This document shows, one piece after another, positions 24,001 through 64,000 of a stretch of 64,000 nt of DNA (the stretch's first letter is position 1; each line of letters begins with the position of its first letter). The stretch is taken from the NCBI GenBank assembly GCA_030063045.1, contig JAQSEB010000167.1:248001-312000 (forward strand). Reading direction: 5' to 3'. The translations under genes and the position numbers were made by a program. The DNA is from Pratylenchus scribneri. Its lineage: Eukaryota > Nematoda > Chromadorea > Rhabditida > Pratylenchidae. Below the pieces are notes generated by a model. The model had not been told where the DNA came from, searched no databases, and worked only from the letters and a program-made list of their open reading frames with translations.

Positions 24001-27000
24001 AAGCTGGCAATGGTCGAGAATGAAGGGTAAAAAGCTGGCAATGGTCGAGAATGAAGGGTAAAAAGCTGGCAATGGTCGAGATGAAGGGTAAAAAGCTGGC
24101 AATGGTCGAGAATGAAGGGTAAAAAGCTGGGAATAGTCGAGAATGAAATGGTCGAGAATGAAGCAAAGAAAGCCTGGAATAGTCGGGAATGAAGCAAAGA
24201 AAGCCGTGAATAGTCGAGAATGAAGCAAAGAAAGCCGGGAATAGTCGGGAATGAAGCAAAGAAAGCCGGGAATAGTCGAGAATGAAGCAAAGAAAGCCGG
24301 GAATAGTCGAGAATGAAGCAAAGAAAGCCGGGAATAGTCGAGAATGAAACAAAGAAAGTCGGGAATGGTCGAGAATGAAGATTAAAAAGCCGGGAATAGT
24401 CGAGAATGAAGCAAAGAAAGCCGGGAATAGTCGAGAATGAAGCAAAAAAAAGCCGGGAATATTCGAGAATGAAAAGAAAAATCCATGGAATTATTGAGAA
24501 TGATATGGATAATGAAGGGAAAGTTGAAAAATGAATAAATAAAATAGTAATGATGAATTGGAGGCATAATTAAAGTAATGTCAAGAATTAAATAATCTGA
24601 TTTTCCAATAATATTTAACAAATATAAGTTTGAGGAATTTGTACATTTTTCAATTTATAGAGAACTGAAACTGAGATCTAAAGCTTTCCATCATTTTTAT
24701 TTTAAAAAGTTTTAGCGAGCGTTGGGATGCCGCGAAGCGGCATCCCAACGCTCGTAATTTGAAAATTGAAAACATTTTCAAAATCTTTTGAACCATATTT
24801 TCAATATCTATTCAAAATATGGGTGAAAATGAATTTTCAAAATGGGACTCATTTTCAGAATATTTTGAAAATGGGGCAAAAAAGCTGATTTGCATTGTTC
24901 TGATTTCCTGTTCTGATTTTTCCCTTGTTCTGATTTCCTGTTCTGATTTTTTCTTGTTCTGATTTCCTATTCTGATTTTCTCTTGTTCTGATTTTCTGTT
25001 CTGATTTTCCCTTGTTCTGATTTCCTGTTCTGATTTTCTCTTGTTCTGATTTTCTGTTATGATTTTTCCCTTCTTCTGATTTTTCTCGCGCACTGTTCTG
25101 ACTTTTTTCCCTTGTTCTGATTCTGATTTCACTCATTTAATCATCTGCCGCAGCTGGGATTCGAACCCGAGTAGTCAAGGCCTAAAGTCAGCGACATAAC
25201 ATTGAGCTAAAGAGGCTATGTATCCTCTTCCATTAAAACATTTACAAGCGTTCGTGAGCCGCTTCGCGGCTCACGAACGCTTGTAAAAGCATTATTCTAA
25301 ACGGAATCAATAACCATAAATTTGCTCCTAAAAAATTAAAGCATAATCAATAGCTCAAATTAAAGAACTCGATTACTTCTATTTAATTAAAATTAATTGA
25401 TGAGAAAAAATTTATTATTCAAAACAATAATAGAAAATAAATAAAAAAAAAATTTAAAAATATGTATAATTTTAAAAACAATAAAATATAACAAAATGAG
25501 ATAGAAATTGTTAATTTAAGGGCAATTTTCTGGGGCAACATCTTTGTTCTGCTGCTTACTTGAATGCTTGCTATAATTTCATGACCAATGCCAACATTTC
25601 ACGACAATGTTCAACCTCAAAAATAAATAAATAAAAATAAATATTCGCTCATTCCCACATAAATTGACCCATATTTTGTTCACATTCGGCCAATTGATTT
25701 GGCCCAATTTTTGTCAATGTTACGTCCATTCGATGAATCTATAAAAAAATAAAATAATAATTATGAACATGCCAAAAACCTTATTTTCCATTTCCGGCGA
25801 AGTCGGAGGGAAACAATGCCAAAAATGTCGGAAGAATTCGGCCAAACATGCGTGGGCAGTTCGAATTCGTTCCATATCGATTCGGGCGAATCCCTCAAAG
25901 CGAATTGTTGACAATGCTGCCGAATTTGACTGATCTTCTTGTCCATCATTGACATCCAAGGAATTTGTTGTCAAATTGTTGAAAAAATCAAATTGACTTT
26001 GCTGAATTTGTCTTTTAAAAATAATTTTAATTAATTTACCTCTTCCAAAACACTGTCCGATGAGGTCAAAACTCCTTCCAATGCATGTTTTGCCCTCTCA
26101 ATTTGCTCATCAATCGTTGTTTGCATTTTGTTGGTGGATTAGAAATCGAAAATGGAGTGATTTCATCCCTAAAAATGGATAACAAAAATAATTAAAATTA
26201 ATGGCTGACCCTTGTTTATCCATTTCGGCCAATTCTTGACTTTTCAAGTCCAAATCGAATAAAACTTCCTCGTTGCTGGATTTTGAAGCCATTGTTGATT
26301 CGGGAATATTTTTTGATCTTCCAATAGTTCCATTTTTAATTGGCGAATTTCCCTAATTAATATTTTTGGAGAATAATTAAATATTAAATTTCCACAAACA
26401 TTTTCTTTTTCAATTGATCCATTCATTCCATTTTGGGCATTGTTCATTTTGGCCAAAGCTTTCCCACTCCCTCCCTCTTCCATTTCGTCAATTGTTCTCA
26501 AAACTCTTTCTGAATGATAATTGCAAAGGCGAATCAGCAGTCTTTTGGCCTCGGATAATCCTCGGAGGGAAATTTTTGTAGAACGCTAAAAATTAATATA
26601 ATAAATCATTTAATCTCTAAACCATTTCCAAAAGAATGCCCAAATCTTCGTTGATGTACGCCAAATGAAAATGCCTTTTCAGCATTCGTTGACCTATTAC
26701 AATTTCTCGCATATCTAAATTGAAAATATTTAAATTAAATTGAATATTATTTGAACCTTTTCATCCATTTGGACGCAAACCGAAAATGGATTATTTTGTT
26801 GGACGGCGGCGACGGATCAACAAAATAATAAAAATATTAAATGCAAATATTTTTTCAAATCAAGATAATGAAATAAATTTGAATTATTTTGCCATGATTA
26901 GCTAAACATTAAGAATGAAAATTCATTTTTATATTTACAAATTGATTAATATTCTTGAATTTCCATCTTCAATTCTAAAAAATTAAATCATTTATTATAA

Positions 27001-30000
27001 GACCTCTTTCCAAACAATATTTCGAATTCTATTATCTAATCTATCATCGGGCAATCGAATTTTAACACCATCCCATGATTTTGCCCGTGATATACCTGTG
27101 TATGTTTGACCGTGAGCGAACGGTTCATCTCTATAATCAATACCAATTTTCCAGAATGTTTGGCTTTGACTTTTGTTTATTCTGAGGGCATATGCAATTC
27201 GAATTGGGAATTGGTGTCTTTTCAATAGAAAAGGAAATTTTTTATCTTCTATTAATGTTATTCTTGGGATAAAGGCAGTTTCACCGGCTCTATCACCATT
27301 CAATATAATACCACATAAAATATTTTTTCCAATATCAATCAATTGAAGGCGAGTTCCATTACAGAGACCTTCTCTTATATTTAAATTTCTCAAAAGCATT
27401 ATGACAGAATTAATTTTTAAATTCAAATTATGTTCTGGGATCCCAGGTGTTTTCAATGAATGTAGAATTTCTAATGAAACAGGGAAATTCTGATTGTTTT
27501 CTGTTTCATCTATGCTCAATAGAGAATGATACTCTCCTGGGAAAGCTTCCATGATTTCTTTATTATATTCATCAACAACTGAATTTAAAGGAGATAATAT
27601 GGCTCTTTTACTTAATTCCGAATAATTTAAATTCTGAATTATATCCCCATAAATTTCTTCAATCAAATTTCCATTGGAAATGCATTTGTCTGGAACTTGA
27701 ATATATCCATCAATATCATTTTTTCCATCTCCAATTTCCAAAACATCTTTTGCAAACTGTCTCTCATTTGGATCAGCTCTCATATTTTCATTTAAATGCA
27801 TAATATCAAAATACTTCCATAATTTTGATTTTTTAATCAATAAAGCAACTATTTCGGTTCTTGTGGCATGTTCTTTAATTGCCAACATTTTTCGAAAATC
27901 TCCACTTAAAATAAAAGTTTTTCCACCAAATGGCTTATCATTTTTCATTAATTCTTTCAATTTTTTATCAATTATTTCTAACATATGTAGAGAAGCCATA
28001 GGTTCTTCATCCCAAATGAAAATATCACAATTTCTTAATTCATCAGCATCTTTGCCAATATTTTCAATTCCACTATATGAATTTCTATTAACATTTAATG
28101 GCAATTTAAATCTATTGTGCAATGTTCTGCCTTTTTTCAAATTTGTTCTGCTATTCCAGTGAAAGCCATATTACAAACTTTTTTCTTATTCCCTCTCGCA
28201 AGATGATAGATTGCTGTTAAAGTAAATGATTTTCCTGTTCCACCTGGTCCATCAATAAATAAACATTTTTCCTCTCCATTTTCTTCTTCAATCATGTTTT
28301 TTAATTCCTAGATTATGGCTTTCTGTCCTTCATTCATTAAATTAATCATTTTAAATGCCGAACTCAATTCTTCACTTGGATCATATAGATCATCATCATC
28401 CAAAGTTTCTCTAGAATTAGTCAATTGAGGCATTGTTTTAAAATCTTTCAGAGATTTATCCTGATATTTCAAAAGATCATTTATTAAAGATAAAGTTTTT
28501 TGATAAATTGAATCATTCGGTAAATTTTGGAATCTTCTTTTTACATCATATGATAAATCGTCTTTAAATGAATTCCATAATAGTTCAGGATATTTAGGAG
28601 CGCAATGAACCAAAATATTTACAAATAAAGTACGCAAAGCTTTCGGAAATCTATATTTTTTCGCTTCTTCCAAACAATTGTGCCACTCTTCATCATTTTG
28701 ACATAAACCACGTTCTAAACATGCCTGAGCAAAAGTAGGAAAAAGTTTTCCATTTACTGTTTTTAAATCTTTATAACTTCGTCCTGGTACATTTAAAAGT
28801 AAATAATACAAATAATATTTCTCTGTTTCACTTGGATTAACAGGATAAAGTCTTCCAATACTTTTGTTGAAATGAGTTTTTCGGTCGGTCCAAATACCTT
28901 TTGTTGAATTCCATGTACAAAATTCTGGCATATCGCCATAAAGATAATTTTTATCAGGGTTTTTTTGCATGTACTCAAAATAAGCTAAAAGAGTGGATTT
29001 TTTTTCTGCTTTAATTTGTAAATCTTCATCATCTGCTTCGTTGTCCACATAAACAATTTGTTCATTTTCTAAATGTACAGATAAAGGCATTACTGAATGT
29101 GATTTTCCTTGTAAAGGAAATTTAAAAATTCGCCAACAGGCTTCACATGGACTTAAGCATCTGGCGTCAAGATAATTAGCTACTTCATCATATTTTAAAA
29201 TTTGCTTTTGGCCACCGGAACCATCAACTACACATTCTACTGTGGTAGCATCAAAACCTTTAAAGATATATTTATAAAGATATTTAACTGCTTTAATATC
29301 GGCCACTTTTTCTACATTTATATGTGCTCTGAACATTTTAAGAAGATACGCATTATATGGAACAATATATTGATTTGTTAAAGGAAAACCAATTCTTTTA
29401 ATAAAACGTCCGTTATTTGGTCTTTTATAATGAGGATATCCATTTTCATTTACTTCTGTTTCTTCTCTAAATTGGTAGGGAAATTTTTTTCCACATCTTT
29501 TCTTTTTATGATCCCAACAATTTGACTGTGGATTGCATGGTCCATGCATCATATTTTTTGTAACAATTTCATATAATTCGGGTTCTTTATTTTTATCAGG
29601 GATTTCAGCCCATATAAAATCATCGATTTTATTCTTGTTTCTCCATTTATCTTTTTTATCCAATGTAATTAAAATATGTATATGTGGTAAACCTCTTTTT
29701 TGGTATTCAATTGTCCATACATCACCAACCACTTTACCAAAAAGTTTTCTGTCAACAATTTCTCTTAACAATTCATCCTTTTTTAATTTAAATACTCTTG
29801 TCACGATTTCCGGTCTATCACTTGGCGTTTGACCTGGTAAAAGGCATTTCAAAATATCTGGATCGTTTGGATTGCATGTAAATGTGATAAATAAATCAGG
29901 CTTTCCTTTTTTGTTTACTCTAGCCATTGAGTCCATGAAGTGTTCATGCATATTTCTAGCGCTTCCTGGATAGCTGGATGGTAAAATTACCACTTGTTTT

Positions 30001-33000
30001 TGTAAATCTATGCCATAATTTTGCGCTTTCTTCTCCAAATAATGATTGACTTTTGAATAATTTGTTTTTACGATTTGTTTTTGATTTCTTTTAACTTTTA
30101 ATAAACATTAAACGATCCCATTCAATTTTAGTATACTGGTCTACTACCCACTGTTGGAATAATTTCTTACTGTGATGATGCGGTAAAAATTTTGCGTTTT
30201 CATCATTTCTGTAAAAAAGTCGATATTTTGTTAAGTCGCAGAGTGATATTTTCTTTCCGTTAACATCTTTTAGATTAAAATTCCAACCTTTTGTACCTAA
30301 GGGATAAAGTAAAGGATATGTCATAGGTTCAACTAATGAATCCAATGGGTACAAATTTATCAAATCTTTTCTTCCTTTCGCATTAACAACAATTTTAGAT
30401 GGTGGAATTTCATCATTAGCATCACAAACTATTATTGCAAACACTTCATCACAATGTGGTAAATTATATCTTCTCATATCATGTCCTTCTTTTACAGAAA
30501 ATAACAATTTTACATCAGGCATATTTTTTCCAATTTTTTTTGCAATTTCTTCTTGTTCTTCATATACTTTACTCATGTATTTATAAGATTGAGCCAACAC
30601 ATTTAAATCTGATAAAAATCCTTCAATTAAAGCCAACAAAGTTCCATCACATTTATCAGTTAAATTTATACGATGATTAAGAGCATCTACAGGATCAATA
30701 AAATAAAGCTGTCCATTAGATGGCACTTCAGATCGTTCTGGTTTAGCATTGGTGTTAAATTTATGGTAAACTTGACCTTGAATTTTGAAAACTGGGGGTC
30801 CTCTACTGGTAGCAAAATCGAATTTAAAACAACTTAATGATGCAAATGAGAATGCATTATTAATTGATCTAATTTTATCAAGATAAATTTTATGAAATTC
30901 GTTGCTTGGATCATATAAAATTTTAAATTCCCAAGGATATTCGTCAATTGTATTTTCCAAATTAATCATTTTTCCATAACCACAACAATCGTTAAATTCA
31001 TTTATTTCTTTTTTGTTTGATATAATATGTTCTTCGGCGAAGTGTATTGCCGGGCAATGTTTACATTTTAAATTAAAATCACTTAATTGGTAAAATTTTG
31101 CTTTAGTATGATCTGCTCCCCATAAATATTTTTCTTCTTTTTGTCTTTTATTTGCCATTCGTAATCGATCACTTTCATTTTGTGTAATTCTTTCATTTTC
31201 TGTCATGTTCTGTCTTTGATTTGCCATTTGTAATCGATTTCTATCTTTCTGTAAAATTCTTTCGTTTTCAGGCATATTTTGTCTTTTATTTGCCATTTTT
31301 AATCGATTTCTATCATTCTGTAAAATACTTTCGTTTTCAGGCATATTTTGTCTTTTATTTGCCATTCTTAATCGATCTCTTTCATTTTGTTCTAATCTTT
31401 CATTTTCTCTCATGTTTTGCCTTTTATTAGCCATTTGCAATCTATTTCTTTCTTTATATGAGAGAGTATTCGAGGAAACAGAAATTGATGGGCCAGGCAA
31501 ATTTGAAACTTGTATTCTATTTCTTTCTGTATATGTGAGATCATTCGAAGAGCCAGCAATTGATTGGTTAGGTTGGTTTGAAATAACTCCTGGTTGATTA
31601 AAAGAAGTTAAGCTGTTAATTGAAGGTAAAGTTTTGGAACGATGCATGTTAAAATTTTGTTCATTAAGATTTGGCGAATTATCATCACTTCCACAATAAT
31701 TGTGGTCATGAGTAACGTGGCTTCGAATAGTTTCTTGCAAATTAGAACGAATTCGATCACTAAACAAAGGATTTGTTGAAAGTGAATCCCTTGGATCAGA
31801 AGAACGTTTCATTTTTTATTCTGATTTTTTATTTTGATATTATTTTCTTTGTTTCTGATTCTTTTCTGGTTCTTTTGTCTTTTTGTTTTGATTTGTTTTC
31901 AGGTTTTGAGCTTTTCTTGTTCAGTTTTTATTATTTTGTTTGATGTTTTCTTTTCTTGTTCTGATTTGTTTTTTGGTGCTAATCTTTTCTTGTTCTTTTC
32001 TAGTTCTGTTTTATGTTTTGTTTTGATTGTTTTTTTGTTGTGATTTGTGTTTTTGTTCTGATTAGTGATGGCAAATCTAGGCAAAATGGGAGACAGCAAA
32101 CAGGGCCCAAATTCACCTAAAAAATAGGGGGAATTAAAAAAAGACAAACGATGAATATATAGTTCAATAAATTAGGCATTTTTATCTAGGAATATAATAG
32201 GAAATTTACGGAATTTGATTAATTTTGGGAACGCGGAAAAAATTGGTAGGGAATTTGAATTAATTATGGAAAAGGGAAAAATAATAAGGCCAAGAAAGGC
32301 CAAATTAATGAAAGTGAAATAATTTTTGAAAGAAGAAATAATGGGCCAATTAAGGCCAAATTTAATGGAAATGAAAAAAATTTTTGAAAGAGGAAATAAT
32401 AGGCCAATTAAGGCAAAATTTAATGAATTTGCGGTAAATTTTGAAAGAAGAAAGAATGGAACAGGTAAGGCCTAATTTATAATTGGCCAATTTACTGAAT
32501 TTGAGGTAATTTTGCCTGAAAAAATAATAGGTCATTTATTGAATTTAAGTTAATTTTTGAAAGAGGAAATAATAGGCAATTTAATGAATTTGAGGTAATT
32601 TTTGCCTGAAGAAATAATTGGTCATTTAGTGAATATGAAGAAATTTTTGCCTGAATAAATAATAGGTCATATAGTGAATATAAGGTAATTTTTGAAAGTG
32701 GAAATAATTAGCCAAGTAAGAACAAATATAGGTAATTTAGGAAAAGCGAAATAATGGACAAATTCAGGTCTATTTTAGAAAAAGTGAAGTAATATTTGAA
32801 TGGGAAAATAATCGACCTAAAAAAAATTAAATAATTTTCGTTTTAATTTTTGAAATTGGAAATATTAGTCCACGAAAGACCAAAAAAGGAATTTGTGATA
32901 ATTTAGTCCAAATTTAGGGAAATTGAGATAATTTTCAAAAGGGAAAATAATAGACTTAGAATGTTCTAAAATTGTATTTTGAGATAATTTTTGAATTAGG

Positions 33001-36000
33001 AAATAATAGGCCATTTGAAAGAGTATTTAATTGGTTAACAAATACCAAAAATAGGGAAATTCTGGTAAATTATAGAATAGAAAATATAAAGGATTAAGTA
33101 AGGTCAAATTTATAGAATTTGATATAATTAATTCGAAAATAATCGGTTAAATTTAAGGAAACCGAGATAAATTTGAATAAAAAAATTAATTGAGAAATCT
33201 AGAGAATATGAGATAAATTTTAATTGGGGAAATAAATAACTAAGAAAGGCCAATTATAGGGATTTTTAAGGTATTTTTGAAAAAGGGAAATGGGCCAAAA
33301 AAGTTAAAGAAAATCAGCGAAGAATATCTATAAGAGTGCTGGTTTTTAAAGAAAAATTTGACTAAAACATTAACTTACACTTCCAAAATCGGGAGGGTAT
33401 GCAAAGAAAACGTTGAAAGCTTGAAGGTCAAACAGAAATATCGTCTCTTCTAATCACAAAAAGACGACAATGCCGAAAAAGAGAGCAAAATATTGATTTA
33501 CTTGAGTGGATTTAAATATGCTCTGTTAAAAATTGGTATCAATTTATTTTTTTCAAAGGAAATAATTTAAAAAAGTGTTTAAAAATTAAAAATCTGAATA
33601 CATGTCGACAATATGATTTAAGTTGATTTTTAGTTATAGAATCAAAGTTGTATTTAAAATTGGTTGAAAAATTTTTTTCAACATGGCTAAGCTAAAAATA
33701 AAAATGGAAAATAATAAAGGTGCATTTGGTAAAATTTCTAAAAATGCAGGAATTTTATCGACTGGGTCAATAAAGAGCATTTGTCTGGTGCAGTCCTTTA
33801 AGGTCGTCGTCGTAAACAGTAGGCAGTGAATCATGGAAAAAATACATCCATTGCTTGCATATCAATTTCATAAGAATTGAACAAAGGAAAACCTTTTTCT
33901 ATATTTGAAAGTGATGATGAGAACAAAAAAACATATTTTTCAACGTTAATTTCATAATTTTTTAAGAATTGAACAACGAAAACCGTTTTCAATTTTTAAA
34001 TAACATCATTTACAATCCAAAATAGCAATGCTTTTATTAAAAAACAAACAACGAAAATTAAATAATTTAATATTTTCATTGTTTTATATTTTTTAATCTA
34101 TATTTATGATTTAATGTTTTTATTGTTGTAATAATTCTTTTTATTAGAAAAGCTTACTAATCTAATAAGCAATAAAATTGCAAGCTGAGTATTTCTTTTT
34201 ATTTTTTTATTTTCTTTATTCTAACATTTATTCATTTATTTGATTTCTTTTTTTATGTTAGGATATTTTGTCATTTATTTTTAAAATTTTGTTTGGCATT
34301 ATGTTTACACGAACACACACACGAACAAACTCATTTAGTATATTAGGATTTGTTCCTTTCATTGCCTTCGGCCCAAGTCATACAAAGGAAAGGTCAATAA
34401 ACACAATTTGCCAGAATATTCTCAAAATTTAGATGTGTTCCAAAAATATTTTGTAAATGGTACTATTTTGTCAATATTTTAACTCAAATTTTCAAATTGA
34501 TTTTGAAAATGAGTGTGAAAATATATTTTCAAAATTTTTAAATTCTCAAAATGTTCCCAGAATTTTATCTATTTCCAGAATATTTTAGAAGTTGGTATAT
34601 TTTGAAAATGTAAACAATTTTGAGCAGATTTTTTCCTATTATATTCAAAATCTTTTGAATTTTTTTTGACTTCGAATTTTCAGAATTTAACTCATTTTAA
34701 AAATATTTTGACAATTTATATCTTTTCAAAATATTTTGACAATTTTCTCATTTTTACAATATTTTGAGAATTACATCAAATTTTCAACATATTTTTGCAT
34801 CTATTTTTTATGTGACTCCGGGAAAGCGTTTTAAAATTAGTCTTTTAAAAAAAATCGTCCCTAACAATTGATCGGCCATAGATTTAATAATAGAAATAAT
34901 TTGAACATTTAGAAAATATTAACGGCTTTAACATAATCTACAATAGATTTCTAAATAAATAATATATGAAATAGGAAATTATTGGTGGAAAAATTTCAGA
35001 CAGTTGCACATGAAATTATTCATCGTCTTGGTCTCACTCACGAACATAAGCGAAATGATCAAGAAAATTTTGTATGGATTAATCTCCCAGAAATTAAAGT
35101 ATGTGAAATTTTAATGGTAATTTAGATGAATTTTATTTCTATTACACACCTACCTATTAAAGAATTAATAGAGAATTTATTTTATATTTATAAAAAATTT
35201 CCAGAAAGGATGGGCATATGCTTTTTTAAAAAGCGATTCATCCAAAAATCTTAATATGCCATATGATTTTGGTTCAATCATGCATTATGCTCCATATGAC
35301 TTTCAGGCCAGAAATGCGTAAAAATAAAAATTATTTGTTGCAAAAAAATTTTACATTTCTTCAGTTATACAATCATTGCCAAGGAACGTGCATATCAGCA
35401 AACAATGGGCCAAAACGATAAACCTTCATTTAAGGATATCAAAGTTCTAAATCGTATTTATTGTGATGGTAAATTGAATTATTGATAATTCTTTTTTAAT
35501 TTAATACTCTGATAAATGTCATAGATTATATCTATATCCATTTAAGGCATTTGAATAATTTAAAATTATAATTAAAATAAACACCAAACAAAGTATAATA
35601 TAAGAGAAAATGATATCCAGTATTTTAAGGAATTAAAATGATTTAAATTAGAGTTTTATAAACCATAAAAATTGCAGATATATGCAGCAAGAATTTAACT
35701 TGTGCTAATGGAGGCTATATTGATCCCTTGAATTGTTCAAAATGCATATGTCCAGATGGTTTTCAAGGAACCAAATGTGACCGATTTTTTTTTGGAGGTC
35801 ATATTTAATATAATTAAAAATAAATACCATTTAATTTTATGAAATTGAATAATTTTATCTTTATAATTGGTTAATATAAAAAGGTTATTTAAAATAATTT
35901 ACAAAATAAATACTATATATATGTTGCCGCTAAAAATGAAATTAGCAAAAAAAATTTTCGAAAAAACTGAGTATAAAAATCTCATCACGTCCTAATTCTA

Positions 36001-39000
36001 ACGCTAATACTCATTCAGATCCTAACTATAAACCCATATATAGTTTTTTTTTTTCAAATCATAACTTTTTATCTGCTTCGTTTGCTAAAATATTGGGTTA
36101 ATTTCAAAAGAATTCGCATAATTTCAATTCGTATCGACATATATAATTTTATTTTTATAGACCCATTGTGCCATTCTGGGCGCCGAACCGCCTATACAAC
36201 TGAAGATTACATTGAAACAAGTGATAGGATTAATGGTTCTAGAGAATGTTTTTGGTCAATAAAGGTGAGTTATTTATAATAATAATTCAATTTCTCTCTA
36301 TTATTTGAAGACAAATTATGTGAATCAAAGAATTGAAATTCGAGTTCATCAATTGGATAATTTTGAATGCCATGATCCCTGTAAAGAGAGCAATTATTTG
36401 GAAATCCAAATGACAAAGGACAAAACTGCCAGAGGTTGAATATATTATAAATTATTATTTCTGATTAGAAATCTAAAATAAAATAAAAGATTCTAATATA
36501 TAAGAAATAAAATAAAAAATAAAATAGCATTTCATTATTCAGCTTAAATGAAAAAAAAAACAAATATTAGATGTCTGTAAACTAAGTATTTAAATTTTAA
36601 ACCCTAACTAACATATTAATATTAAATAATTTATATAATAAATTCGCAGGTGCACGATTATGTTGTCCATCAACATTACCGTTCCGTTTTACATTGGAAT
36701 ACGGAGTAGATGCATTAATCAAAATGAAAAGAACAGAAGATTATCATCAATTTCAGCTCACCTATGCAACACGTAATTTTTAAATAAGCAAATATATGGA
36801 AGATGATTTTTTGACCTGCTACTTTTGTCCCTATTCGATTTTCATTAATGGAATTGTCCAATTATTTAATAGGGAAAGGGGGTGGGTGCACATTCGGGGT
36901 TAGACACTGCTCATAGGAAAAAAAATTTTTAATTTTTCTTAATTCTAATTTTAGTCTCATTTGCCATTTATTCTCTAAATTTATCAATTGGATGTTTAAA
37001 ATTATTTTGAGTTGATATTTTTCCAAGAGGAATATTAACACCCAATTGTCCGCACCCTATTGACCTAATTAGTGCTGGCGCTGACGCCCAATTGATTAGC
37101 AGGCTCCCTATTATTTCGGCATTCGAAAGAGAGGTGGGGGGGGGGGGGGGCTGAGACTTGAGAGCCTAGGAATATTGGGAATTTCCAATTTTCACCCGCA
37201 AATCGGCAAATTCTCTATTATAAAATATTCAATCCATTTTTGATAACAAACTACAGAGGTCTGAAAACATTATGAAGATTGATAAAGAAAATGTCATGGG
37301 TTGAAAAAATAATAATAATTGTTAGATTTACCTTTAATAAATTTGCTAATTTATCTTACAATAAAAATTATTCAATTTAATCCTATATAGTATAATAATA
37401 TAACATTTTATAACAGAAATTAGGTATTAGCATCGCTGAAAATTAATTTCTTATTTTGTTCAGCGGATGCCGTTGAGCCTGATGAACCACGGAAAACTAC
37501 AGCAGCTTGCGCATGTGACCGAATGTTCAATCCTTGGCACACGCCTGGCGCTAAAGTCATTTATGATTACATTGGGACAAAAATGTACTATTCAGTTGGC
37601 ATTAAAAGTCGCTCTAATCTGATAGTATATATCTACCATAATCAATATTCAATATAATTATAATCAATACTTGTTAGATTAATGGAAAATATCCCTTCAA
37701 AACTCAAAATGGAAACGTATGGTTTGATAGAAAATGTGTTGTGAGTTTTTCTTGTTTATTTTATAAATTTATAAAAATATTCTTAATCTTGTAAATATGA
37801 ATACATATCACATATATAATTTGATATTTTCATTATGATATAATATTTCTAAATTTTTCGGAAAATTTTTGTCTGAAATCGCAAAAAATTAAGCCGATAA
37901 TTTTATTGATATATTCTTAAATTTTAAATTTAATTACATAAATAATATTCTTTTGAATTATCGCGGTAATAATTAAGTTTGTTCCCCATGTATTTACCAA
38001 GAAAACGCTAAAAATATAAATTTATAAATTTTCGATGAAGAGGAATCCGAATTTATCATTAGTTTTTCCATATCTCGAATTGCTAAATGGCTATTCAAAA
38101 CCGGTTTCGAGAAAATTGAACTTTAGTATTTTGGGTTATATCATAATATCATTCGACGCGACTCGTCAAGCGGGGGATGAATTTGTCATTTGTTTGGCAT
38201 AAAACCCAAAATTAAAAAAGGTATGGCCATTTTAATCAGATGGGTAACCTATAAACCTAATGAAATTTTTAATGGCCAAATCTTTTTTTTAATTTTGAGT
38301 TTTATGCGAATCAAATAGCAGATTCTTGGTCAGCTTATCGATACACGACGAATGATGTATAATATGACACCCAAATTAGTCAAGTTCAATTTTTTTAAAA
38401 ATCGATTTGTAAACTTACACTGGTTCAATTAATAAAGATAATGACAAAGAAAAACTGATGCCAAATTCGGATGATTCCCCATCATCAGAAAATCATTAAA
38501 TAAATGTTTTAGCGAAAAATAAAATCTTATTTTTCTGGAAAAAATGTGGAGAACAAACTTAATTATTATCGCTTTATCGCTTAAAATGTTGTTTTTAAAA
38601 AAATTTTATTTAAAAAAAATCTCACTAAAAATTTAGTATAATGACAATGATGCCATAAAAAGAGCATATGGCGAATGGATCGAACCCATAAATAAAACTA
38701 ACATTGCTATTGACAGTATTGTTGCTGAAGAATGCCAGACAGATTATGAGAGAAGTGGTGGGTCAAAACGAATGAGAAATGATAAAATAACAAAATTATT
38801 TACATATACGAATAAATAATTAATTTCTCTAAGACAGAAGTGAAAGCTAGGTTATGCATAGAAATAAGAAAAATTATTATAACAATATGGCAGAACCAAG
38901 CTTTTCAATTTTCATTTCATTCATTTGTGTATTTATATATTGTTGCAGGGTGTGGTGAAATGAATCGAATTTGGCAAGAATTTGTGAAATGCCTTAGAGA

Positions 39001-39645: not shown

Positions 39646-42600
39646 TCAGTTTCCCTCAAGAAGATTTTCACCATTCTCATTATCAGTATCCAATGGACTT
39701 TTCTTAATTCTATCACCATGTACATCAACTATTTTTGCTTTTCCCAAATTTTTGTCGCCTTCATCCTCAATTAAATCAAAATCAGAGTGAAACTTTTGCA
39801 CAATTGTAACAGTATTTTCAGTTGTGGTCATATTTCCAAATCCGCATTCTTTTATATGGGAATGTGAAAGAATAAATTTTTAATTATGTTTTATTATATT
39901 TTGGCCTCATCAAATTTTTCTGATCGTTAACATCTTTTTGCTTATAAATTATTCCCGCGAAATCCTATAGATTTTTGAACAATCCTATAAATAAAAAATA
40001 AATAGCAATTTTTTTATATTCCAAAATCTGGCTCAATCCTATACTTTTTTTTTGGCGAATCCGATAAATTTTAACGAGTAGACAAAAATGATTTTCATTA
40101 GGTTCTAATTTAAATCATTTATCAATGCTTTACCTTCACGAATTTGTTCCAAAATTCTTTGTGTCTCTTCCAAACCAAAAATAATGTCGCCATAATAACC
40201 CCATTGATTTAGCTGCTGTTCGCCATCATAATTGTCGGTGGGATGGATAAGTTCTGGCGGAGGTTTTATGTCCGGCTGTCAAGAAAATAAACAAATTAAT
40301 AATATCCTTTTGATAATTAATATTTTAATAAAAATTAATAACATTTTTAATAATTTTAAATTTCAATTTATTTAAATTTTTTAGTTTTTGTATAGAAATT
40401 TAAATTTTTAACTACGAACCATGTTTGGATCAACCGTGAATAAATAGCAATTTCTTATCAATTCATTAATTTGCTCCAAGATCACCTTCACTTTTTTCTG
40501 TTCTTCTGCCATTTTTCGATAACTTTCTTCCAATTCTTCTTTCCATTGATGCTTAATTTTAATTTTTTATTATTATTTTATTTTCTCATATTTAGTTAAT
40601 ATTTATTTTTTATGCTAGGGCTAGTAAACAAGTCAGCGGAAAAAAATGACAAAAATAGATAAAATTCATCTTTATTAAACTAATATCGGGACTAATTTCA
40701 TTTTATTCTATTTCCCAATTATTTAAATATATATTAAAATAATATTACGCATTTTGCTGTCAGCAATGACCAATTGCCATTCAAAGAAGCCTCAATTTTG
40801 CTGCAAGTCTCACCGAAGAACAATATAGAGGAAATATTTGTTGGCATGTCCAAAAAGGCCAACCAAAAACCGGCCTGAATTTTTTATTTAACAGTTAATT
40901 ATTTATTCATTATTTTGGAGTACAGTTTGTTCCGGATTTTCATTCGGATAGTCATCATGAATTGTGCCGTAAGGATCCAAAATTTTTGTCTTTTTATTAA
41001 ACATAAATTCATATGTCATATTGCCCCATTTGTGCGATTTTTTAATTTGCGGAAGAATGAATCTACAATAAAAATCAATAAATGTTTTATTATTTTAAAT
41101 TTACCTTTTATTAGTGTAAGAAAAATGAATTTGCATATCCACTAAAAGATCAATATTGCTTAGAGTGATCCAAAATTTAATGGCAATTCCATGCCAAATT
41201 ATTGTAGATGTGTTCGCTTTTTCTTTACAAAAAGAGGCCAAGGCATTTCCATTAATATTCGGAAGCTTTTTATGAAAATGAAAGAATAAAATACAAATAC
41301 ATTAATATTTTTAATTTTTTTAATTAATTATGATATAGGATATCTATTAATTTACATAAAATGACTTAATTTACATAAATTTTTTCGTGTCGGAAAATAT
41401 TATTTTTTGAGGCAATATAACTTCCAAATCAGATTTCTTTAAAATTCCCTAACCTCTAACCCCAAGCTACTAGCTATAGCCACTAATCCCATCCTGCCTC
41501 GAACCTAATACTTAGCCCTAACTAATACTTAGCTATGGTCAAGTTATATGGCATCAAAAATATAATATTTTTCAACACGAAAGAATTTGGATAAATTATT
41601 TTTTTGAGTAATTTAAATTTTATCATTAATAAAGTGTAAAAAATTTACCAGAAATTCTGGTCGCTCAATAAAACTATTATTCGGGTCCAATCTGCTTTCA
41701 TAACAAATGACAAAAAAGGCACTTTTCTCTCTGTGAAAAATTAAAATTTTCAAAAAATTTTCTGCACTATTCAAACTTTGGATCAGATTCCCCCATAATT
41801 TGACATTCACTAGGCAATGGATTTTGATCATCAATAATATCATCGTAGTCCTCTTCGTATTCAAGCAAGCCAATTTCCTTGTGCCAATATTCGTTACATT
41901 CGCTACCATCTTCCGTGCATCCAATAGTTATCCACATTTTTCGCGCTAAAATATTTAAAATATTTTAATTTTTTTAATATACTAATGGGAAAAGACATAG
42001 GAGGGAGCTTTCTAAAGGTCAAAAATCCGGGAAAATTTCTTGCAAGAATTTTAAAATTTTGGCCTGGCATGCTTACGAAAAAGTATCAATATTTCATGCC
42101 AAAATTCCGTTCCCACTTATTTTTTATCATAACTTTTTTTTATGAAGAGAATATATAATAGTTATAATAAAATTATTTTAAATGATAAATTAATGAGTAA
42201 TATAGGTATTCTTAAAGTTAGAATAAAAATCAGATTTTTTTTTGAAATTTTTTCTCAGCATTTTTTGTGTTTTTTTTTATTTACACTTTAAAAAATCATA
42301 AAAATTTTACTCATTAAATAAATAAAATTGCTCACTTTTACAGCGCTCACTACCAGTACCATCATTGCAAACAATGTGACTAGGAAAAAGCTGCAATTCC
42401 AATTTCCATCCAGCTTCCAAATCGAATTTATGTTCCTCTCGCAATGTCCTTGATAATAATAAATTTATAGTTAAAATATCATTTAATATTTTAATTGAGT
42501 AAAAGTTGATAGGGCTTTGGTTTTCCTTTATATTAAAAAAATTAAAAAAAAATTTATTATGTACTTTCATTTAACTAATCGAAAAAAACAAATTTTAAAA

Positions 42601-43281
42601 AAAATAATTTCATGTGGCAAAAATTATTATAACCTAATAAAAAATTTTGATAGCACTCACAAATTCTCCATTGAATCAAGCTCGGCTAGGCTGAGCGGAT
42701 CTTCTCGGTGATCAATTGCCGTTGGAGTTGGAGTTTCGAATTTAGGACCAACCTTTTAATTAGAGAGTTCACAGAATTTCTATCAAAATAATTACCTCTC
42801 TACAACACATTTCTGGATTAATCCAATGATTAAAGGGAAAATCTTCAAAGAATGTTCCATTTCCAAGTTGTTCACCAATTTTCCATTGTCGAGCCCAATC
42901 CGAAATGATCAATCCGCATTGTGCATCCTCCCTCTTTTCTGCCGAGAATCGCTTGGTTGGCTTCGATGCATTCTCCAGTTGTGGTTGCATTTTCGCATCA
43001 TAGCAATGCTTACTGTACAAGGAACGATTATTTAAATATTTTCACCAAAAAATTTTCAAATTTATTTTATCAAAATTTTAAAATAAATTACCGATCTTCG
43101 GTACATATCACCCTCCATTTTTTGAAATTTTTCGAACAATCTTCCGGACTAAAATTTGAAAAAGGAATTTTTAAATTTTTATAATTTATTTAAATTTGAA
43201 CCTGCTCATACTGGAAGTTTCAGTTTGTCCATTCCCAAAACAAAAAGCTACGATGATAAAAATGAGAAGACTTATGGTCAT
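39646..43281 (-). CDS. D: protease-less astacin-propeptide paralog with acidic tail
   Basis: Intact secreted protein of 570 residues. The thirteen exons, all in phase, are 43202-43281, 43092-43148, 42796-43012, 42661-42752, 42336-42448, 41777-41945, 41649-41730, 41105-41265, 40924-41062, 40749-40874, 40420-40551, 40134-40275 and 39646-39848. It matches the C propeptide exon for exon: signal peptide (ISLLIFIIVAFCFGNG), FKKWRVICTEDR, ASKPTKRFSAE, EAGWKLELQL, GCTEDGSEC, VICYESRLDPNNSF, IIWHGIAIKFWITL, DMQIHFSYTNK and AGFWLAFLDMP. Near the end YYGDIIFGLEETQRIL keeps the Gly-Asp of the astacin switch. The last exon then replaces the furin site and protease with an acidic tail that starts ECGFGNM, recalling KCDNGNN in C. 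No catalytic motif exists. A role as free propeptide or inhibitor is inference. Confidence 0.85.
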
Positions 43282-43904: not shown

Positions 43905-45990
43905 TTAAAATCGAATTAATTCATGGTTCATGTTTTCTTCTTTTCCTTCTTGATTCTTCTCCTCATTGTTTCTCTTTTGAATTTTTTCATCCTTGTCCTC
44001 CTTTTCAACATCCGATAGACTTTCTTCATTTCCAACGGCATGTTCGTCAACAATTTTGATGGAATGCCCCAAATTTTTGTTTCCTTCATCCGCAATTGCC
44101 TCGGTATCAGTATCGGCAGAATGAACAATTTCCACAATTGTTGCCATTTCGGTTGAGCTCATATTTCCATATCCACATTCTTATGTAAAAATTGGAAATT
44201 AGTATACTATTAGCATTGAAATTTCTGATATCATCAAATTTTTTATGAAGCAATGGATTGTTCTTATCAATCCCTTCGTATTCGCCATTAAACACCTCTT
44301 TCCAATATTCTTTACAATCGCTTCCATCTTCATTACATCCAATTGTCTTTACTTTTTTTGGCTCTAAATAAATTGATAAATATTTTTTTTAGTTTTAGAA
44401 AAAATTGTAAAAAGTGCTAAAAAGGTGAAAAATATTTAAATATTTCTATCAATTTATTCCCTTCTTACTTAATCGAGTAAGATTATGTTCTTTTGGGTCG
44501 CAGGCAATTAATCTAGGATTAATTTTCAAACTCATTTTCCATCCATTTTCCATACCCAGATCCATCTCAGCTGGCAAGTTCCTTGATAATTGAAATTTAT
44601 TTTTTATATTGATTAAATATTATTATTTTTAATCTAGATTTTATGAATATATTTATATTCTTATTAATAGATATTATTATTACATTAATCTTTAGACTAT
44701 TTAATTTGTTTCTGACAATTTTATTCAATTTTAGTCTGATAATATTTAATTAATCGAATCTGCTGGTTGGAATTTGTTAATCACTAAATCGAGTGAGATT
44801 CACATATATCTTTGCTTCTAGCGGAAATAAAAACGGATTAAAAATCATTTATTTTTGGCCACTAAAATTGAAAATAAATCAATATTATAATATAATGCAC
44901 TTAAAAACATAATATTAAAATTCACTTACAGGCGATCCAGCGATTCCAATTCTTCATATGTTGGGGAATTTTTAGGACTGCATTCATTAGAATTGTCAAT
45001 CTAAATTATAGTTGAATGAGATTAGACCCCATTCTTAATGATACAGTATATTTCATTAATAATTATCCCGGCTTGGCCTCTAGTCTCTTCCTTTTTCGAA
45101 TAGAATTTTTTAGGATTTTTCCTAATCTAATTGATATAAATTAAATTTTATCCCATATTTAAGTATATTGCTAAGATTAAAAATCATTGATTGTCATTTT
45201 CAATTTGTAATTTTTAAAATTGTTTTTTACTTTCGAAATCGGGATAGAATCTTGTGAATCACACTCCATTTTTACAGGTCTCTTCTGTATAAATTAAGCC
45301 CAATTATATCAATCAATAATCATTTACTCTTTTCATTTACAACTTTGATTCTTACCTTTTTGCAAAATTCATTTTGATTAATCCATTTCTCAAAGGAAAT
45401 ATCCTCCAAGAATGCTCCATCTTCAAGCTGGTTGGCGGCAAATTCCTTTCGACCCCCATCTGATACTGCCGATTCACATTGATCATTAGTCTCATTTTTG
45501 GTAGAGAATCGTTTCGTGGGCTTCGATGCAATCTGCCCATTTGACTTCATATTCGCATCGTAACAATGCTTACTATTCGTAGGGTACAAATTTATTAAAA
45601 AAATTTTTTATATTTCATGAAGAATATCATTTTATTGTATGTATTTTATCTATACGAAGCATATTTTCTATTCGAAAAGATGGTAGTATCAAATTTTGAA
45701 AAAAATAGGATTGAATATAATTTGTAAAAAAGAAAGTTAGCATTAATATGAATTTTATATTTTAGTTATTTTTTACAATAAAAGTGATAATGAAATTAAA
45801 ATAACCGGTCATTAGTACATATCAATTTCCATTCTCTGAAATTTGTTGAACAATTCGTCGAACTAAAATATAGTGAAAATGAATTAAATTATTTGGCTCA
45901 ACTACAATAAATTTTCAACCTGCTGATGACAGTTTGACCATTTTCAAAGCATAAAGCTACAATGACAAAAATGCCGAAAATGATGACCAT
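43905..45990 (-). CDS. E: short protease-less propeptide paralog with charged tail
   Basis: Intact secreted protein of 337 residues. The eight exons, all in phase, are 45920-45990, 45806-45862, 45356-45572, 45231-45284, 44930-45000, 44469-44581, 44208-44363 and 43905-44179. It has a signal peptide (MVIIFGIFVIVALCFENG), FREWKLICTNDR, ASKPTKRFSTKNE, MENGWKMSLKINPRLIACD and GCNEDGSDCKEYW, then jumps straight to the tail exon (ECGYGNM). The CYES, WHG, DMQIHFSY and Gly-Asp exons of D are missing, and the join keeps phase. Exon 45231-45284 has no counterpart in the others, and EFCKK replaces the usual CCKK. The tail is strongly acidic, then Glu/Lys/Asn-rich. Function unknown. Confidence 0.8.
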
Positions 45991-50692: not shown

Positions 50693-53600
50693 ATGGCCTC
50701 AAAGCTTTTTATTATTTTTTTCTTTGTGTCCCTTTCTTTTGGCATTGGGAAAGTCGAAAGCAACAAGTTTGAAACAATCAATATTATTAATTTAATTATT
50801 AATTTATTTCCATCATTTTAGCTCGAATTGCCAACCAAAATTTAGGAAATGGGAAGTGATATGTACGCCTGATCGGTAATTTTTCTTTTTATTTATTGCA
50901 CAAAAATTTGGACAAAAATTATCAAATATTTTTTGAAAACATAAAAATTAAATTTTTTGGTTTTTGTTCATTTTTTTTAATAAAATTCTAAAAGAACATT
51001 TTTCCTCCATTAAATAAAATTTATTTAATGATTATTTTCTCCCGGAAAGTAAGCATTGTTATGATGCGAATGTGCAACCAAAAGTGGAGACTGCATCAAA
51101 GCCAACCAAACGATTCTGGGCCAAAGAAGTGGATGATCAATGTGAATTGAAAATGTCGAATGGAGTCGATGAAGTATTTTCTGGACAATTTGGAGATGGA
51201 CCATTCTTGGAGGATATTTCCTTCGAGAATTGGATTATTAAAAATGAATGTTGCAAAAAGGTAAAAATCGGGGACTTGGAAAAAGGGACTCATCTGATCA
51301 CACTAGATTCAATCCTATCTTTGGAAATAAAAATTTTAAGGATTATAAATTAATAATGACTAGGGCTAGCAAAAAAGTTATATAAAAATTGGAAAATTAA
51401 AAAAATTCCAAAAAATATTACAAAAATTTTATCACAAATTTTTTGAAAATAAAAACCCTCAAAAATGTTGACCAAAATGAACAAAAGTGAAAAATTTTTC
51501 TAGAAAAATATTTTATGAGAAAAATTTTATACCAAATTGGTTTAATGGAAAAATTTTTTTCGAAAAATATCCTCAACAGGGAAAATTTTAATTTTTTTAT
51601 AGAATTTTCAAAAAATTACAAAAAATACTAAAAAATTGATAAAAATGTTATATAAATCACAAAAAAAAATGATTAAAAGTTAAAAAAGTGATCAAAAAGA
51701 TCATATTTTATGTTTAATTTGGTTTTTAAGCATATTAAAGCTTCGCATGAAAAAGTTATTTAGTTTTAATTGCCAGCCCTACTAAAGACAATCAATTCAT
51801 TGATATTAATAATCATATAAATATAATTTAATTTCTCTTGAATTGATATGTAAAATTCAAAAATAAACTATGATTTTTGTCTGTGCGCCATGGTAGATCT
51901 TATAGCTTCGGCATAAGAATACGAACAAACAAGACAAGAACACGTCGGGATTAATAATATATGAATTTCATCTTTACTTTAAGATTGTCCACAACAATGA
52001 GCCCAATCCCAAAGAAGAACCCCCAACATATGAAGAATTTGAAAAGTTGGAACGCCTGTAAGTGAATTTTAATGATACTGTATTTTCAATTTCACTGATC
52101 AAAAATAATAGAGTATTTGTTAAGTATTTGTGTGCATATTTTTAGTCGAACGGAAGAAAGTGAAAAAAAAAGTGATGGTTACTCTTATGAGTGTTAGGAA
52201 TCGGATTTAGGGATGCATAAGGTGATACTCAACCATAATCCCGATGAGAAGACTGACAGAGGGAACCTTTCACTATCCTTTAACTCACCCCTTTTTGATC
52301 AAAAGGGTGCATACCAGAGATGAATATCGTATCGTATATCCGTATTGGATATCGACATTTTATAGCATATCAGTATCGGATATCGGATTTTTTGGAGCCA
52401 TATCATTTATCGGATATCTGTATCGGATTTTGGGCGATGGATATGCATCGCTCTGGTGCATATTGCATACAAACTTATCAAGAACCAAAAATAGCTATTT
52501 TTAGCATTATTCTGGACATTTTCCCTCTCATAATCAATGAGGCATGTAATTTTTATTCGAATTAGTAAATTACATGCTAATTCCAATCAGATTCGATCAA
52601 ATAATTATAAAATATTTTTTGATCCTATAAATAAATTTACTTAACCCTAACAAATGGATCGGGCCACAGATTAATACAATGATAATATTTCTGTTATAGG
52701 AAATTAGTAATTTAAAATCAAATGGGATTTGATATGAAGTTTTTTATTTGCATGTAAAATATAAAAATTTCAATTATCAAGGAACATGCCAGCCGAGAAG
52801 GATTTGGACATGGAAAATGGTTGGAAAATGAAATTGCAACTCAATCCTAGCTTAATTGCATGCGACCCAAACGAACATCCGAATCGTACTCAATTAAGTA
52901 AGAAGGGGGGATAAATAAACTTCTTAAATAAAAATATTTGAAAATTCTTCAGCTTTTTAGCATTTTGACTCGATTTATTCTTAAACTAAAAAAAATAATA
53001 ATCAATTAATTTAGAGCCAAAAAAAGTAAAGACCTGGGGATGTAATGAAGATGGAACCGACTGTCAATATTATTGGATTGAGGTGTTTGATGGCGAATAC
53101 GAAGGAATTGATAAGAACAATCCACTGTCATTAGATTGCCAGCTTATTCCAGAATGGGATAGAAAGTTTGTTCATCAGTACGATAAATATTGCTCTATTT
53201 TTGAATTTTTAGAATTAAAAGTGGACTCTATTTGATTTGTTATGAAAGCAAATTGGAACCTGAGGTGACTTTTTAGCATTTAAAACAGGGTTACCAGATG
53301 TATTTTTTTAAAAGATTTGTACTTTTTTTGAGGGGTCGAATCTTTGAAAATAAAAATGTTCTTTTTTAAAGATTTGTACTTTTTTTTTTGACTTTGGTGT
53401 TTTTTTATACTTTTTTTTTCACAAAATCATGAAAAAATCGTAAAATTTTTCGCTGCGCGGCTTTTTTTGGCTTAAATTTTTGCTTGCGGCTCGAAAAATT
53501 ATAAAAATTTCTTTTCAAAAACACGTGATCTAAGTTTGGGAAGATCCCCGGTTGTTCATTATGATAAAAAAAACATACTTAAAATTTTTTTATCAATTTA

Positions 53601-55823
53601 TATTAGTTTAAAATGAAAATCTTTTTTTTTGACACCAAAATCTTTTTTTTCAAGGCCAATGTACTTTTTTTTTGAAAAAAAATCTGGCAACCCTGATTTA
53701 TAATATAAACTAAATTTGGGCCATAAATAGTTTTTTGAAAATTTGTTGAAAATTAATTTTTTTATTAATTGCATTTGAAATGCTATTGCGATTGGAAAAT
53801 ATGTGAAAAAATTTCGATATATAATAAGATTTGTTCCAATTTATTTTGACCGATAATCGATAAATCTATATCAAACTTATAAAATTTACCAACAAAAAAT
53901 TTATCTTGAAGCATATATAATATAATAATAAATAAATTTTATTTTCCAAAGTTACAAAATATTGATGGAAATGTGCTGGCCTCTTTTTGTCAAAAAAATG
54001 CTGCCACATCTGGAAAAAATTGGCATGGAATCGCCATCAAATTTTGGGTGACTCTCACTGATACTGCCCTCCTTGTGGATTCACAAATCTACTTTTCCTA
54101 CACAAATAAAATGTAAATTTGAAATATATATAATAAAAATTTATTAATTTTAATATGTAGTTTTGTCCTTCCACAAATAAAGGAAAAGCAAAGTGTGCCC
54201 ATGACATATGAATTAATGTTCATTGATAGAATCTCAAAAATTTTGGATCCAGACGGCATAATTCATGATGATTATCCAACTTGTCCTAATCCTCATGAAA
54301 ATAATGCATTTCAGGAAACGGCATGTTTTGGAAATTTTTAACCATTCATTATTATTAATTGTGCTAAAATTAATATTTAGTCCGGCCTTTGGCTTGCCTT
54401 TTTGGACATGCAATCAAATATTGGCTCAATTATGATTTTCTCCGAAGGAAAGGATTGTCATAAATGGAATGCATTTTTGAATGACAATTTGCCATTAAAG
54501 ACTACGGATTGCGTAATAAAATTGAGAAAAATAATAAACTTAAAACAAAAATTTAGATTTCATTACAAGAAAAAATGGATCAAATAATAAAGCGTGCGGA
54601 AGAAGAAAGGAAAAAAGTAGATGAAATCATGATACAGGTTATGGAATTGAGAAAAAAGTGCAATTTAACAGTTGATCCAGAATTTGTAAGTGCTCATTTT
54701 AATAATTTATTATGTTTAATTAAATTAATAAAATGAAATATTATTATGTTTTTCAAATTGTTTATTGTAAAAATTATTATTTTAATTTTAAATAATATAT
54801 TTATTGATAGCCAACGCCTCCACCGGAATTAGTTAATCGCACACGCCCATATAATGGCGAAGAACAAGGATATGGTGGATACGGTGATCTAATTCCATCA
54901 CTGAAAGAAGCAAATGAATTATTGAATCAAACTATAGAAGGTTTGTGATTTTGATTTTTTGAATTTTAATAATAATGCAATGAGAAAGCATTTGGTGCTT
55001 GGTCGATTCCACAATGGTACAAATATGGGCAGGGCACCTCCACAAATAGTACAAATATAAGTTTTTGACTTCTAATACATCAGCAATGGGTTTTAGACCA
55101 TACAAACCTTATACCATTTTGTAGATCTCGCCAAGACGCATCGAATGATATATATGCCAGATTTGGCTCAAAATTAAAGAGTTTCTAACCAAAAACATAA
55201 AAATATGGTTTAAACGGTTTAACTCTTTAACTTTTAGAACATTTTATATGCCATTCGATACGTCTCGATGAGTTCTACAAAATGGTATAAGGTTTGTATG
55301 GTCTAAAACCTAATACTGATTTATTAGAAGTCAAAAATTTATATTTGTTACTATTTGTGGAGGTGCCAATATTTGTACCGCCCTTTGCATATTGTGGAGA
55401 TGTCCCCGGACGGTTTAATTTTAAAGTTTTCCTAGAAGTGCTTTAAATCATGGTTGCCAAAGAGAAATCCGCGATTTTTGGCGATGCAAAATCCTAAATT
55501 TTGATCAATCCAAACTGAATTGCATATTTAGATATAAAATAGATTCTTTTTTGCTGGCTTTTTTAAAATTTTTAGGCATTTTCTTCTCCAATTAAATTGG
55601 TTTTTTAATATAAATAATTCCAATTTGATTGAAAATTTAATTTGTAAATTTATTTTCCCATCCAATTTCAGAATGTGATGGCCAAAGGCAAATTCGGAAA
55701 AGACAAATTGGAGGATCCATGTTCGTGGATTTTAAAAACAATAGCAATTTCAAATGGTCCAACAAGCGTTGGGATATCACAAATCCCATCAAATATACCT
55801 ATGATACCACTAATAAAGGTTGA
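50693..55823 (+). CDS. F: intact protease-less type-A gene ending just inside the astacin domain
   Basis: Secreted protein of 531 residues. The thirteen exons, all in phase, are 50693-50766, 50822-50875, 51050-51260, 51984-52057, 52782-52897, 53015-53165, 53213-53264, 53952-54112, 54161-54320, 54381-54512, 54557-54685, 54811-54940 and 55672-55823. A free acceptor TTTTTCTAG lies 38 bp before the ATG. The propeptide module is complete: FRKWEVICTPDR, ASKPTKRFWAKE, ENGWKMKLQLNPSLIACD, LICYESKLEPE, NWHGIAIKFWVTLTD, SGLWLAFLDMQ and GYGDLIPSLKEANELL (Gly-Asp kept). The furin site IRKRQ and the first 40 or so mature residues (KRWDITNPIKYTYD) follow. It then ends NKG-TGA, where C has a splice donor. 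The exon 9 intron begins GC, not GT (54321). No catalytic exons follow. Confidence 0.85.
52314..52456. mobile_element. Small MITE in F intron 4
   Basis: Inverted ends CCAGAGATG and CATCGCTCTGG, flanked by TGCATA on both sides (52308-52313, 52457-52462). Interior is ATATCGGAT-type repeat. Absent from A1, whose matching region is deleted. Confidence 0.6.
53286..53695. mobile_element. hAT-type MITE in F intron 7
   Basis: Ends CAGGGTTACCAGAT and ATCTGGCAACCCTG, flanked by ATTTAAAA (53278-53285) and ATTTATAA (53696-53703), an 8-bp duplication with one change. Length, ends and duplication are typical of non-autonomous hAT elements. Interior is T-rich. Confidence 0.85.
55026..55383. mobile_element. 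Palindromic MITE in F intron 12
   Basis: Copy of the element at 7534-7860 with the same GGGCACCTCCACAAATAGTA ends, at the matching intron position. Present before the segmental duplication. Confidence 0.8.
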
Positions 55824-56500: not shown

Positions 56501-57113
56501 CCCCATAATTGTACATTTTATTATTTTTCATTACTTCCATTTTTCATTAATAAATTTTTTTTTTATTTTTAGTCGGCAAAATTATTTAATTGTCGACAAA
56601 ATATTAAATTTCTTTAAATCATTGCAAGCTTAACAATTCCGTAATAAAATTATTATTATAATTCACACTTTTTTTTTTATTTTATTCTCATCAGAGGTAA
56701 TGGCATCGCCCATGGCGTTGAACATTTTCCTTCTTGGCTTTTTGGCCCTACTTGCTGGGCAAATGTCGATTTTGGCTATTCGGGAAATCAACGGTGAAGA
56801 GTCAAAAATATCTAAACATTTTTAATAATTTTAATTTTTTTAATAAATTATATAAAATTAATTTAATTTATCCGAAATAAAATTTGTAATTATTTCAGCA
56901 GAAATGGACGACATCCAGCAATTGAGCCAAGAACAGCAGGCGGTATTCCATTATAATAAATTAATTTAATCAAACTCCTTTTAAAAGATGTTGCAAGAAA
57001 TTCGTAAAGGCAAAAAATGGGAAGTGAATTGTGAAAGGGAAATTCGGAATGGGAAAAGCATATTCACTATATGCAAAGATGTTTTGTAAGTTGAAAAATT
57101 ATTTGCTATAAAG

Positions 57114-57788
57114 AACCAGCGGGGCAAGCCCGCTGGTTCTGAAAATGGGGATGGAAGGAATACGTGGGACGATTGTAAGAAAGCGCTATCGCGCTTTAAA
57201 AGATTCCTAGGAGGATTATATTTAATATTAGAATCCATTCCCCATATTTTTGATATAAATTCAACTCGCGCAGAACCGGTTTAAAAATTTGAACCGGTTT
57301 AATTTTCAAAATAAACCTCAAATTTGTGATCCCCATCATCGAAAACCTCTAAAAAAATTATTGGCCGTTGGTGGGATTCGAACCCGCGACCTCCATCCCC
57401 ATCCCCCCATCTTCGCCAATCGGCCATGAAGGGAAAAATGCCGAGGTACCAATTTTTGCCGGCTTCCACAGCCCTGGGTTTTGAGTTTAGACCCCACAAA
57501 CCATATATCATTTTGTAGCTAAGACTTCAACTTAAAATCCTAGTATAACAAAGGGTATGAAAAAATCAAAAGGAAAAAAGTTTTACCAGGGCAAACCAAA
57601 AAAGTTCAATTTTTTAAACCGGTTTTTGGCTAATATCTCGAAACCGGGGGATTAATTCGAAAAAAGAGGATATTTCCCATTGGTTTCATACATATGGGAA
57701 ACTTTTAAAAAAAAGATCTCGAAAATCGGTCCAGTAGGAGTCTCCATCTTGAAAAAATTTTACGAAACTCAAGTTTTTTTTAATATTA
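57114..57788 (-). mobile_element. SINE-like insertion in B2 intron 3
   Basis: About 675 bp flanked by TATAAAG (57107-57113 and 57789-57795). B1 has TATAAAAG with no insert at the matching site, so it is the empty site. On minus it carries an A box (TGGCGAAGATGG) and a B box (GGTTCGAATCC), and GGCCGAT pairs with AACGGCC like an acceptor stem. It ends in an 11-bp hairpin (GAACCAGCGGG at 57113). Confidence 0.7.
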
Positions 57789-63924: not shown

Positions 63925-64000
63925 GTAATTTTTTATTTTCATTACTAAAAATTGTACAAAAACAAACAAATTTTTCTTATAAATACGAATCCATTATTTC

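Follow-up and report, generated by a model that had tools for sequence, protein, structure and literature searches.

Stand-alone propeptide inhibitors are already known, in the accounts drawn on here, for subtilisins (SUB1-ProM) and for cathepsins; crammer, the cathepsin propeptide-like example, is a small protein. In Plasmodium, SUB1-ProM has its own propeptide-like gene adjacent to those of subtilisins and is described as a potent inhibitor, and the same account adds MEROPS I9 members and TgMIC5 to the stand-alone inhibitors that resemble subtilisin propeptides (PMC6993865). Crammer, from Drosophila, is described as an inhibitor resembling a cathepsin propeptide (PMC3551606). Among metzincins, ADAM12 is inhibited in trans by its recombinant prodomain, PA12 (PMC4609913). 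Zymogens of known astacins have an FXGDI motif whose Asp displaces the catalytic water on the zinc (PMC9848320). Here we describe gene D, a stand-alone propeptide-like gene beside an astacin gene (gene C) in a 64,000-nucleotide stretch of Pratylenchus scribneri DNA (contig JAQSEB010000167.1, positions 248,001 to 312,000; hereafter the window). No stand-alone propeptide gene for astacins appeared among the literature matches listed, a coverage that leaves most subscription journals outside. Fetuin-B, Sizzled, and PCPE-2 are described as inhibitors of astacin-family enzymes and, to our knowledge, are not propeptide-derived.

Gene D shares with SUB1-ProM a gene of its own, a propeptide-like sequence, the lack of a catalytic domain, and adjacency to protease genes (PMC6993865); SUB1-ProM differs in its serine-protease family, its unrelated propeptide, and its measured inhibition, that of D being putative. 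Crammer is likewise a free-standing propeptide-like protein, and the protease it blocks is of the cysteine type (PMC3551606). Astacin zymogens share the Gly-Asp-Ile segment with D (PMC9848320) but carry this switch in cis, whereas D has no catalytic domain. PA12 resembles the role proposed for D, as a metzincin prodomain acting in trans, but is a designed reagent with no natural gene (PMC4609913).

Gene D is intact and is found, in minus-strand orientation, where a preliminary description had placed it (Table 1). Its 13 exons splice into a 1,713-nt coding sequence of 570 codons with a final TGA and no internal stops, and all 12 introns are GT-AG. The chance of 570 open codons in random sequence at 28.8% guanine-plus-cytosine (GC) content is ~1e-21, a figure that is only rough because the D exons were chosen by homology. 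We saw no frame or splice lesions; the sole oddity is a weak exon 9 donor (ACT/GTACTC), and exon 9, if unspliced, reaches TAA after 18 nt. The N-terminus is signal-peptide-like as judged by eye.

The N-terminal part of D is homologous to the propeptide of C. Exons 1–3 and 5–12 each match C at an expect value (E) below 0.001 (tblastn), and the rest of the window offers exon 4 no match better than E 2; the exon-for-exon alignment claimed earlier therefore holds for 11 of the 12 pre-tail exons and fails for exon 4. Identity between the D and C bodies is 57% over 409 codons. Exon 12 of D reads Y-Y-G-D-I-I, an FXGDI motif with Tyr for Phe, and scores shuffle z values of 9.0 to 14.8 against exon 12 of C, F, E', X, and G, so the claim of a retained Gly-Asp in a C-like propeptide stands. 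GDII starts, with its Gly, at residue 485 of the 570, and the bulk of the D "propeptide" is thus a long N-terminal module.

Beyond exon 12, D departs from C. A furin-type [RK]x[RK]R site is absent from D, tblastn found no catalytic exon downstream of exon 12, and a 67-residue last exon follows instead, bearing out the reported replacement of furin site and protease. This exon 13 has no convincing relationship to the C furin exon. Its tail, described earlier as acidic, is so only mildly: 15 D/E and 7 K/R among 67 residues give an isoelectric point of 4.43, and the body is already at 4.87. A Pfam scan of D, run on a draft with a few wrong joint residues, returned no meaningful family (best E 0.2) and no astacin domain. 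By its sequence, D is not an astacin, lacking the zinc site HExxHxxGxxH with Met-turn.

Gene C is a real astacin, as proposed, with exons 1–16 joined in frame and a catalytic domain matching Pfam PF01400 at 172.8 bits (profile positions 2–188 of 189). Its order is an N-terminal module, GDDII, furin-type RIRKRQ, the astacin catalytic domain, and EGF-like and CUB-like exons, the last two named by eye. The catalytic motif HEIIHRLGLTHE lies on exon 35000–35098; exons after 16 were found by tblastn with joints placed by eye, and further coding exons are possible to ~39140. PDB matches of the catalytic domain are to astacin chains (e.g., proastacin 3lq0 and meprin beta 4gwm), and the matched region stops short of the propeptide. 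A wider search on the catalytic side gave two proteins with E no higher than 1e-5, one from Meloidogyne enterolobii (36%) and one from Heterodera trifolii (31%), species named as in the source. For the D body, no homologue was found among 2,879 candidates, nor among 5,201 using a five-sequence alignment, and a PDB search with the D body alignment gave chance-level matches alone (best E 0.2). Two introns of C carry features of their own: long minus-strand open reading frames (391, 599, and 574 residues) of Helitron-type look by eye at 26995–31815, ahead of the HExxH exon, and a short tandem array around TTTTTCCGGAAAGAATAATT at 17550–17970, also seen by eye.

Gene D belongs to a small set of tail genes. 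A search of the whole assembly with the D tail exon found five places—D and E on the window's contig (C167), D' and E' on a contig carrying a near copy of the locus (C79), and X—all in the D locus or its near copy and amounting to three genes: D, E/E', and X. These places rule out D as an isolated oddity. The tail exons are mutually homologous (shuffle z 16.7 to 21.7), and where exon 12 is present, the three tail genes keep GD[I/V] in it (D, E', and X). A single clade of tail genes was also considered and is unsupported: In a codon tree of eight genes and 380 codons, E' joins F (90), X joins C and Y (100), and D has no firm place. X has a C/Y-type body beneath a D-type tail, which implies that body and tail have recombined. 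Convergent pairs recur across related spacers, with D pointing toward protease gene C and X toward G.

Pairwise divergence bears on whether these bodies are maintained. Across 389 codons, the bodies of D and E' differ by a nonsynonymous divergence (dN) of 0.30 and a synonymous divergence (dS) of 0.93, and the corresponding ratio of proportions (pN/pS) is 0.46 (bootstrap 0.37–0.55); these counts exclude exons 1 and 4, and exon 5 is missing for E'. Sequence comparison thus indicates that the D body is constrained over the long term and the tail at most weakly.

From these features, D most likely works as a propeptide mimic; inhibition itself we infer. The best single reading, which we hold tentatively, is that D may restrain astacins in trans as a gene-encoded propeptide. 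D corresponds roughly to the N-terminal product that furin-type cleavage would free from the neighboring astacin zymogen. It would be secreted alongside C-type proteases and dock onto one through its long N-terminal module; its exon-12 segment would then occupy the active-site cleft, where the GDII Asp would sit on the zinc and restrain the protease in trans. Because it lacks a furin site, D would escape zymogen-like processing, and its tail may aid folding or binding. The inhibitor-or-decoy role suggested in the preliminary description is supported in part, and E' and X, sister genes built alike and with their GD kept, as well as the SUB1-ProM precedent, add to that support.

Several observations weigh against this assignment. 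For the tail, pN/pS is 0.81 for D–E' and 0.71 for D–X, with intervals that include 1; E'–X (0.53, interval 0.31–0.98) is the sole tail pair that excludes it. D and D' differ in exons 10–13 by six nonsynonymous and no synonymous changes, and their exons diverge no more slowly than their introns (6 of 603 versus 11 of 808 sites; P = 0.63). D is the longest tip in the tree, and the pairwise ratios do not isolate its branch. D, E', and X share the same residue in 15 of the 44 aligned columns of exon 12, so that the retained Asp is not significant on its own, about a third of the columns being equally conserved. Known astacin propeptides are described as acting in cis and as essentially unstructured along the cleft (PMC9848320), and affinity in trans is therefore not assured. 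The D body greatly exceeds the switch segment in length, and a portion of it is shared with B and B2, genes in which no protease exon was found. The array is also full of decay, several members having shed catalytic exons, and D and E are each whole on one contig at most: C79 lacks the equivalent of D exons 1–9 (C167:288932–291704), leaving D' partial, and C167 lacks that of E' exons 7–12 (C79:640232–648022), leaving E partial.

Such decay is what would be expected if D and its sisters were by-products of a fast-changing tandem array, that is, protease genes that lost their 3' end, gained a new last exon, and are now drifting or disappearing. Breakages are many: Besides the partial D' and E, searches for catalytic exons of A and F found none, and C79 holds two copies without exon 10 through the HExxH exon and, beside D', a protease gene without exons 3–5. 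The tail of X ends ~20 residues short of the D-like reading, and tail constraint is weak. The intact frame of D and its constrained body stand on the other side, and we regard this by-product origin as possible but doubtful.

How much of the breakage is biological depends in part on the assembly. The complementary gaps leave one whole gene of the D/E pair per contig, with the proviso that the exon joints of E' are settled only in part; no further copy of D exons 8–9 above 78% was found, and the missing stretches in D' and E may be assembly errors. Three loci and one fragment for the RNA polymerase large subunits suggest that the assembly is mostly collapsed. The nearest copies of a gene flanking the locus are 93% identical on C79 and 90% on C129, and the C79 and C167 copies may be leftover haplotigs or duplicated segments, if not plain alleles. 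As a separate observation, identity between the two contigs is 96% over the D region (C79:637334–639685 versus C167:286583–288932) amid neighboring matches of ~70–92%, as if recently exchanged.

The length of the body raises a different possibility: The function of D may reside in its long cysteine-rich N-terminal module, which could bind to matrix, to a partner, or to a host molecule, with the Gly-Asp segment a relic. More than 450 of the 570 residues lie ahead of exon 12, and exon-3-like pieces are present on other contigs. D exons 7–9 align with B/B2 at an hhalign probability of 94% (E 1.2e-7, 112 columns), the B side being two near-identical sequences. B/B2 have no meaningful exon-12 match, and no astacin exon was found in them or between B and C (E up to 0.05), so that the shared module supports a function apart from the zinc switch; Pfam domains were likewise absent from the first 341 residues of B, the part scanned. 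E carries the tail and N-terminal exons with no exon 12, but it is probably a damaged gene and not a naturally short one, and exon 12 with its GD is retained in D, E', and X. A module function of this kind is in our judgment unlikely, if still conceivable.

The likeness of D to the entire N-terminal half of C, beyond the switch, would also suit a folding helper or decoy that binds the protease or zymogen without blocking the zinc, for example to assist folding or to compete for the activating protease or a partner; subtilase propeptides are described as able to be chaperones (PMC6993865). We consider such a role very improbable: The Asp would need no retention.

Gene G extends the inhibitory reading of D. 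Exon 12 of G (C167:319915–320040) and that of its relative (C129:387827–387952) read GGFFSP, with Gly-Asp absent, and G has HExxH and SIMHY in open stretches, which makes an externally supplied switch conceivable. More broadly, and we regard this as improbable, the locus could hold a split-zymogen inhibitor class for astacins: Three or more genes for secreted propeptides, located next to astacin genes or facing them tail to tail, would block the proteases in trans by lending the zinc-binding Asp; G, its own Asp lost, would rely on a partner; and recombination within the array, of the kind that X displays, would let the inhibitor bodies keep pace with changing proteases. If trans inhibition by D is true, nematodes would have a gene-encoded brake for their many astacins, and the aspartate switch would become testable in trans. 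If it is not, the locus is a clear case of tandem protease arrays shedding and reusing exons.

Table 1. Coordinates of gene D, its selected exons, and other genes of the locus (window positions unless a contig is named)
Feature	Position	Strand	Description	Basis or remark
Gene D	39646..43281	-	stand-alone propeptide-like protein, 570 residues, 13 exons	spliced frame checked; exon homologues by tblastn
D exon 1	43202..43281	-	holds the start codon and MTISLLIFIIVAFCFGNGQT, which resembles a signal peptide	matches exon 1 of C and E
D exon 4	42661..42752	-	extra exon	tblastn, without significant match elsewhere in window
D exon 12	40134..40275	-	Gly-Asp switch-like segment WGYYGDIIFGLEETQRILEQIRE	homologous to exon 12 of C, F, E', X, G
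D exon 13	39646..39848	-	67-residue tail in place of C furin site and protease start	
Gene C	15045..36774	+	astacin, modeled in part	exons 1-16 in frame with GT-AG joints
Gene E	43905..45990	-	tail gene adjoining D; exons 7-12 missing, so no Gly-Asp segment	joints approximate
Gene A	5326..8320	+	propeptide and furin exons	exons 5-7 not found, exon 8 partial
Gene F	50694..55820	+	like A, furin exon QIRKRQ	exon 7 runs into stop
Gene G (start)	63760..64000, on to ~C167:324926	+	astacin gene, exon 12 without Gly-Asp	
Gene B	9173..14526	+	secreted-looking, shares module with D exons 7-9 and with C	ends by eye
Gene B2	56700..63251	+	second copy of B	ends by eye; 92% identical over compared part

For A and F, the search for catalytic exons ran up to the next gene. 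The joint after their exon 9 has an apparent GC donor by eye, and a scripted search found no GT joint there. SL1-like (spliced-leader) RNAs were seen at 41 places, 0 of them above the curated cut-off. Tandem repeats of the FHSRLFPAFYISFS type occupy window positions 47400–49150 and 23580–24570, with several frames open for hundreds of codons. GC-rich repeats GACGCTGAAACGG and their complement, noted by eye, lie in opposite orientation at 4190–4370 and 5010–5190, with ~0.7 kb between them.
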